A model generated the notes under the pieces. It was not told the origin of the DNA. It saw nothing but the letters and a program-made list of their open reading frames with translations, and made no database searches. Shown in pieces: positions 2,396 to 7,021 of a stretch of 7,021 nt of DNA (position 1 is its first letter; every line of letters begins with the position of its first letter). Made by a program: the position numbers and the translations under genes. The stretch is from NCBI GenBank assembly GCA_020061125.1, contig JAGUYV010000504.1, forward strand, positions 1 to 7,021, in the 5' to 3' direction. Source of the stretch: a bacterium. GTDB lineage: Bacteria > UBP15 > UBA6099 > DSWB01.

Positions 2396-3970
2396 GTGAG
2401 GAACCCGCGTCAAAGCGACAGTCCCGCGCCGCCCCCCGGCGCGCCGGACCCCGGCAAGGCAGCGCGCAGCAAAGTCAGATTCAGGCTCGTGCTCGCTTTC
2501 CCCGTGCTCACCACCCTGCTGGTTCTGGGTCTGGGCGCGGTGATCATTGACATGCAGCAGCGCAATCTGGCCAACCCCCAGATTGTGCGGCTCACCAGCC
2601 CCGAAATCTACGCGCGCATCACCCAGACCACCGACGCCATGACCCTGGTCATCATCGGCACCGCGGCCATCGCCTTCGTCTCGGGCATCGTGCTCGCTCT
2701 CACCGTCACCAACCCCATCCGCAGGCTCGCCCGGGACACCGCCAGCATCGCGCGCGGCGACCTCACACGCAGCATCCGCCTCAACGCCGACGGGGAACTC
2801 GCCATCCTCGGCTCCGCACTCAATGAGATGGTCGCTTCCATCAATAAATACATGCTTCATTCCATGTCCGGCGGCATGCTGATCATTGATGAAAGCGGCG
2901 TGATTGTATCCTTGAGCGGCGACGCCGAATTCATCCTGGGCGTGAGCGCCGACCAGTGCGCGGGCGCGCACATCACACAGGTGTTCCCGGACATCCCGGA
3001 AAACCGCAGATTTCTCTCCATCGTCAACGAAACCCTCTCGCACCATAAAACATTCCCCACGCAGCAGCTTGCGGTGTCCACCGAAGAGCGCCGGGAGATC
3101 CCCATCACCCTGGCCACCTCCCTGCTCAAGGACAGGGACAACACCCTGGTGGGCCTGTCCCTGTCATTCGAGGACGCCAAACAGTTGCGCCGCATCGAGG
3201 AGCAGATGCGCCGCGTGGACCGGCTCACCACCCTGGGCGGCCTGGCCGCGAGCGTGGCCCACCAGGTGCGCAATCCCCTGTGCTCCATCAAGGGCCTGGC
3301 CCAGCTCCTCAAGGAAAACCGCGCGGACGACAAGGCGCTGTGCGACTACGCCGGGGTCATCATCAAAGACGCCGAGCGCATTGACATGGTGGTCAACCGC
3401 CTCATGCGCATGCTCCAGCCCACGCAGACCGACTGGACCCTCGAAAACATCAACGACATCCTGGGCGAAACCGTGACCCTGGCGCGGCACGAAATTCGCG
3501 ACAAAAGCATCGAAATCCTGGAGCTGTTCGACGCGGACCTGCCCCCCCTGGTGGCGCAGCGCGAAAACCTCATGCACGCGTTCCTGAACTTCGCGATCAA
3601 CGCGATTCAGGCCATAGAGCACAAGGGAACCATCACCGTGCGCACCCTGCCCGCGCGCGCCCCCATGCAATCCGGCCGCGGCCCCGGCGGTCAATTATCG
3701 GGCATTATCGTGGACATTGAAGATAACGGGCCGGGAATGACCGAAGACGAGATGCGCAGCATTTTCAATCCCGGATACACCTCCAAGGAGCAAGGCTCGG
3801 GCTTCGGCCTCGCCATTTCCCAGCAGACCATCCAGGCCCACGGCGGGGAAATCCGCGTCCGGAGCGAACCCGGAGTCAAAACCGTGTTCCGTATCTGGCT
3901 GCCCCTGCGCGAACCGCGCGCGGATCCCGCCGCACACCAGGGAGACGCTCTTGACACAGCAGGCGCCTGA
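2396..3970 (+). CDS. Membrane-bound PAS-domain sensor histidine kinase (NtrB/ZraS/AtoS type)
   Basis: A 524-residue inner-membrane sensor kinase. Order of parts: a Pro-rich cytoplasmic N-terminus (about 1-28), TM1 (about 31-51), a periplasmic loop of only about 30 residues, TM2 (about 82-104), HAMP (about 104-155), PAS (about 155-260), a HisKA dimerisation helix pair (about 271-340) and HATPase_c. The H-box is ASVAHQVRNPL with phospho-acceptor H289. The N-box is NFAINAIQAI (398-407), G1 is DNGPGM (443-448), F457 marks the F-box, and G2 is GSGFGLAIS (467-475). The residue after the His is Gln instead of the usual Glu or Asp. The small periplasmic loop suggests that the PAS domain or the membrane provides the signal. 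The GTG start lies 6 bases after the receiver stop with GTGAG just upstream; the next Met (M53) would remove TM1. The 3' end overlaps the regulator gene by 20 bases, so the two are very probably cognate partners. Confidence 0.93.
   Translation: MRNPRQSDSPAPPPGAPDPGKAARSKVRFRLVLAFPVLTTLLVLGLGAVIIDMQQRNLANPQIVRLTSPEIYARITQTTDAMTLVIIGTAAIAFVSGIVLALTVTNPIRRLARDTASIARGDLTRSIRLNADGELAILGSALNEMVASINKYMLHSMSGGMLIIDESGVIVSLSGDAEFILGVSADQCAGAHITQVFPDIPENRRFLSIVNETLSHHKTFPTQQLAVSTEERREIPITLATSLLKDRDNTLVGLSLSFEDAKQLRRIEEQMRRVDRLTTLGGLAASVAHQVRNPLCSIKGLAQLLKENRADDKALCDYAGVIIKDAERIDMVVNRLMRMLQPTQTDWTLENINDILGETVTLARHEIRDKSIEILELFDADLPPLVAQRENLMHAFLNFAINAIQAIEHKGTITVRTLPARAPMQSGRGPGGQLSGIIVDIEDNGPGMTEDEMRSIFNPGYTSKEQGSGFGLAISQQTIQAHGGEIRVRSEPGVKTVFRIWLPLREPRADPAAHQGDALDTAGA
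3939..3953 (+). promoter_or_regulatory. Ribosome binding site that fixes the TTG start of the NtrC-like regulator
   Basis: AGGGAG (3939-3944) lies 6 nt before TTG 3951-3953, inside the 3' end of the kinase gene. This supports a TTG start overlapping the kinase by 20 bases. The first downstream ATG in frame (residue 18) would remove the acidic pair of the receiver domain. Confidence 0.75.
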
Positions 3971-5372
3971 CAACATCCTCGTGGTGGACGACGAGGAAAA
4001 CATGCGGTTCCTCATCCGCGAGACTCTGGCCGCGCAAAATTACGAGATCGAAACGGCCGGCGGCGGCGCGCAGGCCATGGAGCTGATTCGCAACAAAGAT
4101 TACGGATGCGTGATCATGGATGTCCGCATGGCCGGCATGGACGGCCTGCAGACCCTGGCCGAAATCAAAAAGCTGCGCCCGGACCTGCCCGTGATCATGA
4201 TGACCGCATTCGGTTCGCGCAAAATCGCGCTCCAGGCCATCCAGGAAGGTGCCTACGATTACTTCACCAAACCCTTCGACATCAACGAAATGCGCGTGGT
4301 GGTCAAGCGCGCCATGGAAAAGAAAACCCTGGAGCGGGAGAACGAAAAACTGCGGCGGCAGCTCGCGGTCGCGGGCGGAGACACGCGCCTGGTGGGCCGC
4401 AGCCAGGCCATGGCCGAAGTGCTCCTGTTCATTGACCGCGTGGCAGGAAACGACCTCACCGTTCTCATCCAGGGACCGAGCGGCACGGGCAAGGAACTGG
4501 CCGCAACAGTAATCCACGAAAAAAGCCTGCGCGCGCACATGCCGCTCATCAAAATGAACTGCGCGGCCATTCCGGAAACCCTGCTCGAAAGCGAACTGTT
4601 CGGCCACGAAAAGGGCGCATTCACCGGCGCGGGCGCGCGCAAAATCGGCAAATTCGAGGCCGCCCACGGAGGCACCCTGTTCCTGGACGAAATCGGCGAC
4701 ATGAGCCTGGTCACCCAGGCCAAACTCCTGCGCGTGCTTGAAGAACACGCCTTCGAGCGCGTGGGCGGCACCGAAACCATCAGGGTGGACATCCGCATCA
4801 TCGCGGCCACCAACCAGGACCTGGCGCGCGCCGTGGCCGAAAAACGGTTCCGTGAGGATCTGTTCTTCCGCCTCAATGTGCTGCCCGTATCCATGCCCCC
4901 GCTGTATGATCGCGTCGAAGACATCCCGCTTCTGGTGGAGCACTTTCTCGTCGAAGCGCGCGAGCGGTACGGCGCGGGCGTGCGCCGCATGTCCAGCGAA
5001 TCCATGCGCCTGCTCATGGACTACCGCTGGCCCGGCAATGTGCGCGAGCTGGCCAATGTGCTCCAGCGCGCCGCGGTCATCGCCCAGGGCGAACTCATCA
5101 CCCCCGACTGCCTGCCCGCGCAAATCCGCGGCGCGGTCCCCCAGCAGGAACAAGACGGCAAACCGCACGCGCCTTTCGACGGCTCTCTCCAGGAAGTCAT
5201 TGACAACATGGTGCAGACCACGGAGAAAAAACTCATTCAGGAAGCCCTGGACAGCACGGACTGGAGCCGCACGAAAACCGCCAGGATGTTGAAAATATGC
5301 AGAAAAAGCCTGCATAATAAGATGAAAAAATACGGTTTGCTGGAACAGGATGCGGAACCCGAATCCGACTGA
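3951..5372 (+). CDS. Sigma-54-dependent response regulator, NtrC family (receiver, AAA+, Fis-type HTH)
   Basis: A 473-residue transcriptional activator of standard length for the family. The receiver domain (about 7-122) has acidic pair D13/D14, phospho-acceptor D57 (IMDVRMAGMDG), T85 and K107 (YFTKPFD). A helical linker (about 123-140) leads to the AAA+ domain (about 145-380). That domain has Walker A GPSGTGKE (175-182), GAFTGA (222-227, the loop that contacts sigma-54), Walker B TLFLDEIGD (242-250), arginine-finger region FREDLFFRLN (300-309) and the sensor II motif WPGNVREL (360-367). The C-terminal Fis-type helix-turn-helix is about 425-463 (TKTARMLKICRKSLHNKMKK). All motifs needed to remodel sigma-54 RNA polymerase are intact. 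The start is TTG, backed by AGGGAG 6 nt upstream. It is probably phosphorylated by the overlapping kinase gene's product. Its target promoters are not identifiable here, although pilus or secretion genes are suggested by the next gene. Confidence 0.95.
   Translation: MTQQAPDNILVVDDEENMRFLIRETLAAQNYEIETAGGGAQAMELIRNKDYGCVIMDVRMAGMDGLQTLAEIKKLRPDLPVIMMTAFGSRKIALQAIQEGAYDYFTKPFDINEMRVVVKRAMEKKTLERENEKLRRQLAVAGGDTRLVGRSQAMAEVLLFIDRVAGNDLTVLIQGPSGTGKELAATVIHEKSLRAHMPLIKMNCAAIPETLLESELFGHEKGAFTGAGARKIGKFEAAHGGTLFLDEIGDMSLVTQAKLLRVLEEHAFERVGGTETIRVDIRIIAATNQDLARAVAEKRFREDLFFRLNVLPVSMPPLYDRVEDIPLLVEHFLVEARERYGAGVRRMSSESMRLLMDYRWPGNVRELANVLQRAAVIAQGELITPDCLPAQIRGAVPQQEQDGKPHAPFDGSLQEVIDNMVQTTEKKLIQEALDSTDWSRTKTARMLKICRKSLHNKMKKYGLLEQDAEPESD
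5289..5318 (+). promoter_or_regulatory. Candidate internal promoter for the PilB/GspE-like gene, with an inverted repeat in its spacer
   Basis: TTGAAA (5289-5294, 5 of 6 matches to the -35 consensus) and CATAAT (5313-5318, 5 of 6 matches to the -10 consensus) are 18 bases apart. They lie in an AT-rich patch at the end of the regulator gene. The spacer holds the perfect inverted repeat TATGCAG-N7-CTGCATA. A start near 5325 would give the ATPase gene a leader of about 80 nt. The patch also encodes Lys, Asn and Ile in the helix-turn-helix, which partly explains its composition, so this is a candidate only. Confidence 0.4.
5296..5316. repeat. Perfect 7-bp inverted repeat inside the candidate promoter
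   Basis: TATGCAG (5296-5302) and CTGCATA (5310-5316) are exact reverse complements around a 7-base centre. The repeat lies between the -35 and -10 hexamers and overlaps the first four bases of the -10. It could be an operator for a dimeric regulator or a small RNA hairpin. It sits within codons of the regulator's DNA-binding domain, so a chance origin is possible. Confidence 0.5.
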
Positions 5373-5405
5373 AGGAGCCGGGGCGCAGCGCGCCCCGGGC
5401 ACGGC
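5372..5405 (+). promoter_or_regulatory. Split ribosome binding site: Shine-Dalgarno, 9-bp hairpin, then start codon
   Basis: AAGGAG (5372-5377) is the only strong Shine-Dalgarno before the ATPase gene, but it ends 28 nt before the ATG at 5406. The gap holds a perfect hairpin: CCGGGGCGC (5378-5386), loop AGC, GCGCCCCGG (5390-5398), followed by 7 unpaired bases. Folding of the hairpin would bring the Shine-Dalgarno to an effective 7-nt spacing. No ATG, GTG or TTG lies in frame between the preceding TGA (5370-5372) and 5406, so no closer start can explain the Shine-Dalgarno. No T-run follows the hairpin, so it is not a rho-independent terminator. Confidence 0.6.
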
Positions 5406-7021
5406 ATGAAACTCTCACCCCTTGGCTCCATGCTCGTGACGCGCAACATGCTCACCGCCGAGCAGCTCGAAGCCGCGCAGCGCAACGCCGCGGACAGGGG
5501 CGAACGCGCCCTCACCCGTGAAATCGTGAACCTCGGCTACCTGTCCCCGGAAGCCCTGGCCCGCGCCATGAGCGAACATCTCGGCCTGCCCTTCGTGGAC
5601 CTCAAGGATTTTCCCATTGACGCCCAGGCGCCCATGCTCATGCCCGAGGAATTTCTGCGCCGCCACAGCGCCATCCCCATCCGCATCGAAAACGGCGAGC
5701 TGTTCCTGGCCGTGTTCCCGCCCGTGGACCTGGCCGTGCTCGATGAAGTCGAACTCACCACAGGCTATCGCGCCAAACCCGTAATCGCCACGGAAAACGA
5801 CATCCACCTGGCCCTCAACCAGCACTTCAGCGCGCAGTCCCGCACCCGCCAGACCATCGTGGACATGCGCCTCGAGGACATCGAACCCGAGGACAGCGGC
5901 GAACTGATCCTCGATGAAATCGTGGACACGGTGGAAAGCCCGCCCATCGTGCGCCTGGTGGTGGACATCATAGACGGCGCCATCAACGAGCGCGCCAGCG
6001 ACATCCACCTCGAACCCCAGGACGACGACATGCGCGTGCGTTACCGCATTGACGGCGTGCTCCACGACATCATGCGCATCCCCCGCAATGTCGAAGCCTC
6101 GGTCATCTCCCGCATCAAAATCCTCGCGAACATGGACATCACCGAGCGCCGCGCCCCCCAGGACGGGCACATGAACATCCGAAAGGCCGGCGCCGAATAC
6201 GACCTGCGCATTTCCACTTTCCTCACCGTGAACGGCGAAAAGCTCGTCATGCGCCTCTTGAGCAAGGAAACCATGCTCCTTCGCATGGAGGAACTCGGCC
6301 TGTTCCCCGAGGAACTCGAACGCCTCAAGCGCATCACATCCAGCCCCTATGGCATGGTGCTCATCACCGGTCCCACGGGCTGCGGCAAAACCACGACCCT
6401 GTACTCGATTCTCAACCGCATCAACAACACCGCGGAAAATATCGTGACCATCGAAGACCCCGTGGAATACAAACTGCCGGGCATCAACCAGTCGCAGGTC
6501 AACCGCAACGCGGGCGTGACCTTCGCCACGGGGCTGCGCTCCCTGCTGCGCCAGGACCCCAATGTCATCATGGTGGGCGAGATCCGCGACCTGGAAACCG
6601 CGGAGATCGCCATCCAGGCGGCCCTCACCGGCCACCTCGTGTTCTCCACCCTGCACACCGCGGACGCGCCCAGCGCCGTGACCCGCCTCATTGACATGGG
6701 CATCAAGCGCTACCTCATCAGCGCGTCCATCGTGGGCATCGTGGCCCAGCGCCTGGTGCGCACCATCTGCCCGGCGTGCAAGGAAGAATATAAAACCGAT
6801 GTGTCCGAACTGCTGCAGGAATTCGGAATCCGTTCGGGCAAGCAGGGCGCCACGAAGCTCCACCGCGGCCGGGGCTGCAAATTCTGCGGCCAGCACGGGT
6901 ACCGCGGCCGCACGGGCGTGTACGAGCTGCTCACCGTGACCGACGAATTCCGTGACGCCGTGCTGCGCAACCGGCCCGCGCACGAACTGGCGCGCATCGC
7001 CGTCCGGGACGGCATGACGCC
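5406..7021 (+). CDS. PilB/GspE-family type IV pilus or type II secretion assembly ATPase (3' end beyond window)
   Basis: The frame is open from ATG 5406 to the window edge, giving 538 residues; probably only a few tens of residues are missing. This cytoplasmic hexameric ATPase powers pilin or pseudopilin polymerisation at the inner membrane. An N-terminal MshEN/T2SSE_N domain (about 1-145) is followed by an acidic linker. SDIHLEP begins at 198, then Walker A GPTGCGKTT (322-330; Cys at 326 where Ser is common). The Asp box is IVTIEDPVEY (346-355), Walker B is RQDPNVIMVGEIRD (382-395) and the His box is STLHTAD (414-420). The zinc tetracysteine is C455/C458 and C491/C494 (CPAC and CKFC). The long N-terminus favours PilB over the shorter classical GspE, but the two cannot be separated firmly without the neighbouring pilus or secretin genes. 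The gene lies 33 bases after the regulator, in the same frame, with an unusual split ribosome binding site. Confidence 0.94.
   Translation, partial: MKLSPLGSMLVTRNMLTAEQLEAAQRNAADRGERALTREIVNLGYLSPEALARAMSEHLGLPFVDLKDFPIDAQAPMLMPEEFLRRHSAIPIRIENGELFLAVFPPVDLAVLDEVELTTGYRAKPVIATENDIHLALNQHFSAQSRTRQTIVDMRLEDIEPEDSGELILDEIVDTVESPPIVRLVVDIIDGAINERASDIHLEPQDDDMRVRYRIDGVLHDIMRIPRNVEASVISRIKILANMDITERRAPQDGHMNIRKAGAEYDLRISTFLTVNGEKLVMRLLSKETMLLRMEELGLFPEELERLKRITSSPYGMVLITGPTGCGKTTTLYSILNRINNTAENIVTIEDPVEYKLPGINQSQVNRNAGVTFATGLRSLLRQDPNVIMVGEIRDLETAEIAIQAALTGHLVFSTLHTADAPSAVTRLIDMGIKRYLISASIVGIVAQRLVRTICPACKEEYKTDVSELLQEFGIRSGKQGATKLHRGRGCKFCGQHGYRGRTGVYELLTVTDEFRDAVLRNRPAHELARIAVRDGMT

Follow-up and report, generated by a model that had tools for sequence, protein, structure and literature searches.

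The boundary between an NtrC-type regulator gene and a pilB/gspE-like ATPase gene in a member of an uncultured bacterial phylum raises the question of how a ribosome might initiate at a start codon whose Shine-Dalgarno (SD) sequence lies 28 nt upstream, with a hairpin in between. The stretch of DNA analyzed here (the window) is an entire contig of 7,021 bases from a metagenome-assembled genome (G000; 4.1 Mb, 79% complete). It encodes a PMT_2 membrane glycosyltransferase-like protein, a receiver-only response regulator, a HAMP-PAS histidine kinase, the NtrC-type regulator, and the PilB/GspE-type ATPase. Genome-scale background scans covered about 732 kb of G000 and 400 kb of a relative, G002, with 500 and 238 gene starts, respectively, taken from a simple codon-usage caller, and the phylum comparison set consisted of seven genomes. 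Within this one order, G+C content ranges from 60% in the G000 sample to 46% in the G002 sample, with 57% in the pilB region of G002. The features of the junction are collected in Table 1.

Table 1. Features of the regulator-pilB junction, in window coordinates.
Feature	Position	Strand	Remarks
NtrC-type sigma-54-dependent response regulator gene (receiver, AAA+, Fis HTH), upstream cistron	3951..5372	+	58% identical orthologues in G001, G002, G003, and G005
Regulator stop codon TGA, one base (A5372) in common with the SD	5370..5372	+	
SD AAGGAG, fully complementary to the 16S 3′ end of G000	5372..5377	+	predicted duplex -8.7 kcal/mol
Candidate bridging hairpin, 5′ arm CCGGGGCGC	5378..5386	+	
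Hairpin loop AGC	5387..5389	+	
Candidate bridging hairpin, 3′ arm GCGCCCCGG	5390..5398	+	
7-nt linker GCACGGC, stem to start	5399..5405	+	a folded hairpin would place it in the usual SD spacing range
Predicted competing helix between the linker and AUG (5400-5408) and two segments of the pilB frame (5429-5433, 5435-5438)	5400..5438	+	-10.5 kcal/mol alone
pilB/gspE-like ATPase gene (MshEN and T2SSE), ATG 5406, runs off the window	5406..7021	+	gapless orthologue alignment, profile matches

The junction reads GAC TGA AGGAG, CCGGGGCGC AGC GCGCCCCGG, GCACGGC, and ATG, with the hairpin adjoining the SD directly, and the coordinates first proposed for the TGA overlap, AAGGAG, stem, loop, linker, and ATG were all exact on re-reading. 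The 3′ end of the G000 16S rRNA is CCTCCTTTCT, and the sequence terminates ...GGATCACCTCCTTTCT. Pairing with this anti-SD is predicted at -8.7 kcal/mol for AAGGAG vs. -2.3 kcal/mol for the linker, and no usable linear SD is present near the start. In G000 (500 genes, 732 kb), SD words of at least 5 nt cluster at spacings of about 4-10 nt, so the 28-nt gap falls far outside the normal range, while the 7 nt to which it collapses with the hairpin folded falls inside it; the original prediction was therefore right that AAGGAG is too distant for linear use. A clear near SD was found in 260 of the 500 G000 genes. With about half of the genes lacking one, an SD-less pilB start would not be unique, and pilB could do without an SD.

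Sequence comparison supports ATG 5406 well as the right start of pilB. The pilB frame is open back to the TGA, with no in-frame start between the SD and ATG 5406, as had been claimed. Five orthologues from four genera, among them those of the relatives G001, G002, G003, and G005, each beginning with Met or Val, align without gaps from residue 1, and the best PilB profile model begins its match at residue 6, which corresponds to profile position 2. Later starts at Met9, Met15, and the GTG at codon 11 are ruled out by this alignment, in which Met9 is placed opposite Leu or Ile; an N-terminus at Met9 or Met15, named beforehand as an outcome that would refute the idea, was thus not found. The PilB N-terminus itself (residues 5-57; window 5406-5580) matches the MshE-type cyclic di-GMP motif model at 30.1 bits, below the cut-off of 38, hinting that the motor may be under cyclic di-GMP control.

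The spacer between SD and start is predicted to be strongly structured. RNAfold formed the all-GC 9-bp stem with its 3-nt loop in every context tried, in agreement with the original description, and gave -20.7 kcal/mol for the 28-nt spacer (z -2.7); for the whole stop-to-start segment, the folding z was -2.2. In contexts of 100-310 nt, pair probabilities were at least 0.98 for the inner seven pairs and 0.57-0.98 for the two outer ones, and the stem was predicted with the SD and the AUG both outside it. When the spacer was dinucleotide-shuffled, 0.4% of the resulting sequences contained a perfect Watson-Crick stem of at least 9 bp and 1.1% folded equally well. Shuffling of the 75-nt upstream region of the window gave the full geometry, defined as an SD, an abutting hairpin of -20 kcal/mol or lower, 4-11 nt, and a start, in 1.3% of cases. 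At 0.4-1.3% of shuffles, the stem is more than would be expected by chance from its composition.

Downstream of the stem, a competing helix, not taken into account in the original proposal, is predicted to pair the start codon with codons 9-11 and would hide the AUG; it is partly replaced and weaker in 180- and 310-nt contexts. By a rough energy estimate, exposing the SD, the linker, and the AUG plus 12 nt while keeping the hairpin would cost 8.4 kcal/mol, part of which stems from the competing helix, vs. 29.4 kcal/mol for a fully linear 30S footprint. A 30S subunit using AUG 5406 without the help of a translating ribosome would therefore almost have to keep the hairpin folded.

Initiation across a folded hairpin has been demonstrated experimentally in phage T4 genes 25 and 38, and the arrangement is otherwise documented mainly there. 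In genes 38 and 25, SD-AUG distances of 22 and 27 nt are shortened to 5 and 11 nt by intervening structure (PMC3014915), and destabilizing these structures lowers initiation (reviewed in PMC3014915). The gene 25 structure is present in close T-even phages and absent from distant relatives (PMC3014915). As positive controls, genes 25 and 38 were both recovered by our scan, with linkers of 8 and 4-5 nt. At the T4 gene 37-38 junction (L250 4615-4655), TAAGGAG contains both the stop codon of gene 37 and the SD of gene 38, overlapping as the stop and SD do in the window; AAGGAG over the upstream stop, a perfect abutting hairpin, and a short linker to the AUG are therefore common to both. However, gene 38 is an AT-rich, experimentally tested phage case with an 8-bp stem closed by UUCG, some G-U and A-U pairs, and a collapse from 22 to 5 nt, whereas the window is from a bacterial chromosome, with an all-G/C 9-bp stem, an AGC loop, and a predicted collapse from 28 to 7 nt. 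Gene 25 (the 26-25 junction) resembles the window in that a stem between two cistrons reduces a long gap, in this case from 27 to 11 nt, but its SD lies inside the upstream coding sequence, stop overlaps start, and the stem is A-U-rich and has been probed and mutated.

Cellular genes offer a looser parallel. The E. coli polyamine modulon mRNAs (rmf, oppA, rpoN, and others) have an unusually distant SD with structure between it and the start, and some of the genes with a distant SD and bulged structure respond to polyamines (PMC7177335). In contrast to the window, these structures are bulged and remodelled by spermidine, the rmf gap is shorter (11 nt), and an abutting perfect GC stem is absent. 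No annotated bacterial case of the geometry described here was found in the literature searched, outside of which most subscription papers fall.

The same junction can be followed in relatives, with G004 and G006 outside the comparison owing to a contig break at the junction or a gene that was not found. G002 and G003 belong to one genus, in a family other than that of the window; their pilB is 61% identical to the window's, and both have the regulator-pilB junction. Its order is TTTTGAAGGGG, a CCTCCGCTCCGACGCTCCGGAAGGAGCGAGGAACGGGGG hairpin, 8 nt, and ATG, with 47 nt between the SD (GAAGGGG) and the ATG, and the hairpin abuts GAAGGGG at 0 nt (-27.5 and -26.6 kcal/mol; z -2.5 and -2.7). No alignment with the window sequence is possible, yet the same three elements occur, with the same contacts. 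In an automatic scan, pilB was by far the strongest bridged site among 238 G002 gene starts, and the full geometry (-20 kcal/mol or lower) was found at nine of 9,932 ATGs scanned there. Against the T4 spacings of 5 and 11 nt, the collapsed spacing is 7 nt in the window and 8 nt in G002 and G003. A usable linear SD, which T4-type sites lack, is likewise lacking in the window; in G002 and G003, the 3′ half of the hairpin contains two possible linear SDs, AAGGAG and GGGGGG, the latter 7 nt upstream of the AUG and inside the stem.

Between G002 and G003 (two closely related species, 97% identical), three differences fall between the regulator end and the ATG, and the sole change within the stem, U-A to U-G, keeps the pair. 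The G003 regulator terminates at a TAA that lies 9 nt earlier, and an SD overlapping the stop is therefore dispensable in that genome. In the window, the regulator stop (5370) and the pilB start (5406) are in one frame, 36 nt apart, and UGA read-through would fuse both proteins. Read-through, including by way of a selenocysteine SECIS element, which a hairpin behind an in-frame UGA brings to mind, is ruled out, since the G002 pilB frame differs from that of the regulator (52-nt gap) and the G003 regulator stop is TAA.

Other relatives lack the hairpin. In G005, from the family of G002 and G003, regulator and pilB are still neighbours, 28 nt apart, but no hairpin forms between them (z +0.25), and AAGGGAG stands 7 nt before the GTG start. 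In G001, pilB is not linked to the regulator and has a near SD without the bridged arrangement. A stem thus accompanies a far SD, and absence of a stem accompanies a near SD, as the bridging model predicts. The original prediction had named a stemless homologue retaining the long gap as its refutation; G005 is not such a homologue, as its SD stands 7 nt from the GTG. The sample of relatives is small, and G002 and G003 count as one independent observation; the comparative data favour a real architecture. In a survey of PilB homologues extended beyond the phylum, five of 93 with a placed start gave any hit in the scan at a loose threshold; two of these were G002 and G003, and the rest were weak. 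A search for further orthologues in a named genome collection gave a best identity of 46%.

Judging from sequence and modelled structure, we put at roughly 55% the probability that pilB in this bacterial operon is served by a functional split ribosome binding site, which accommodates a hairpin in the manner of T4 gene 38. The anti-SD of a 30S subunit would pair with AAGGAG at the stop codon of the regulator, while the very stable hairpin (5378-5398) would remain folded and looped out, leaving the 7-nt linker as the effective spacing. AUG 5406 would thereby reach the P site, as in T4 genes 25 and 38. When a ribosome terminates at UGA 5370, it would cover the SD and open the 5′ arm, so that the site could be used only after its departure, and pilB initiation would consequently be tied to regulator termination; an influence of regulator translation on ATPase initiation had also been suggested originally as a possibility. 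Folding of the hairpin on the 30S subunit and its enhancement of initiation are inferred; so, more weakly, is the tie to termination. The split-SD reading, as originally put forward, fits all of the sequence evidence, and its geometry recurs in a second family; arm covariation is limited to the one-sided, pair-keeping change between G002 and G003. Counting against it are the single independent comparison and the missing arrangement in G005, the GGGGGG run within the stem of G002 and G003, the predicted pairing of the start codon, the absence of enrichment of bridged sites in both genome samples, and the many G000 genes with no clear near SD. Split sites are a kind already known from T4, to which the window adds a putative bacterial instance rather than a new kind.

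The main rival, somewhat unlikely in our estimation, is that the structured junction works through translational coupling. Ribosomes that had translated the regulator would open both the hairpin and the start helix and reinitiate 33 nt downstream at AUG 5406, with AAGGAG serving at most as a tether and the hairpin suppressing independent initiation. The stop and start are indeed 33 nt apart in a single operon, and the start codon is predicted to be paired in isolation. Coupling also finds support in G002 and G003, whose hairpin hides AAGGAG and GGGGGG opposite CCUCC-like sequence; it could be a lid over linear SDs that coupling opens. Energetics in these genomes (11.1 kcal/mol for bridging vs. 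16.0 kcal/mol for exposure of GGGGGG) do not decide between bridging and lid. In two stretches (L084 and L085), the 5′ arm, at about 60 nt upstream of the pilB ATG, contains CCTCCGCTCC, an anti-SD-like sequence, opposite purine runs of the 3′ arm, and these runs are a possible second, sequestered SD. In the window, however, neither arm contains an SD, so the hairpin there hides none; a stem placed directly against the SD, with 7 nt remaining, is what bridging predicts, and G005 has a normal SD at 7 nt and no hairpin.

Less probable again is chance, with a GC-rich inverted repeat falling by accident between a purine-rich stop context and an SD-less start. Upstream stems of at least 9 bp occur near expectation in the G000 sample with 60% GC (16 genes vs. 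12.8 in shuffles), SD-like words far from starts are common in that genome, and shuffles lead one to expect about one strong bridged site per 500 genes. The full geometry is found at 50 of 27,796 ATGs (0.18%) on both strands of 732 kb of G000. Bridged sites are not enriched over shuffles in either sample of gene starts (two vs. 7.6 among 500 in G000; five vs. 3.4 among 238 in G002), which rules out a genome-wide class. A weaker bridged candidate is present on the reverse strand of L156, upstream of the called start 5826 (C158, G000), with GGAGGAA, a CGGGGC/GCCCCG hairpin (-13 kcal/mol), 7 nt, and a start; an upstream TAA falls within its hairpin loop. Against chance at pilB stand the stem, a 0.4% event for its composition, and the orthologous gene in another family, where like geometry in unrelated sequence would be expected by chance at about 0.1-3%.

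An mRNA-processing, stability, or transcription-pause element unrelated to initiation is very improbable: although a strong GC-rich stem at a cistron boundary would suit one, the stem is followed by GCACGGC rather than by a U tract, it matched no Rfam family at gathering score, and it has one exact copy in the 4.1-Mb genome (others with at least two mismatches), observations that also rule out an intrinsic terminator and a dispersed repeat.

Should the split-site reading hold, a chromosomal case in an uncultured phylum, its geometry rebuilt from different sequence in another family, would suggest that real initiation sites are being missed by gene finders and expression models in which only linear SD spacing is scored. 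The junction would also provide a compact, strong all-G/C example for structural study of how a hairpin separating the SD from the P site fits on the 30S subunit. A further-reaching possibility, which we regard as decidedly unlikely, is that the regulator-pilB junction is a conserved ribosome-operated switch in which structure, not sequence, has been selected across two families. The ribosome finishing the NtrC-type regulator would cover the SD and open the hairpin, and upon its exit the refolded hairpin would deliver a 30S subunit to the pilB start. If this were true, the output of the pilus motor would follow completed rounds of regulator synthesis.
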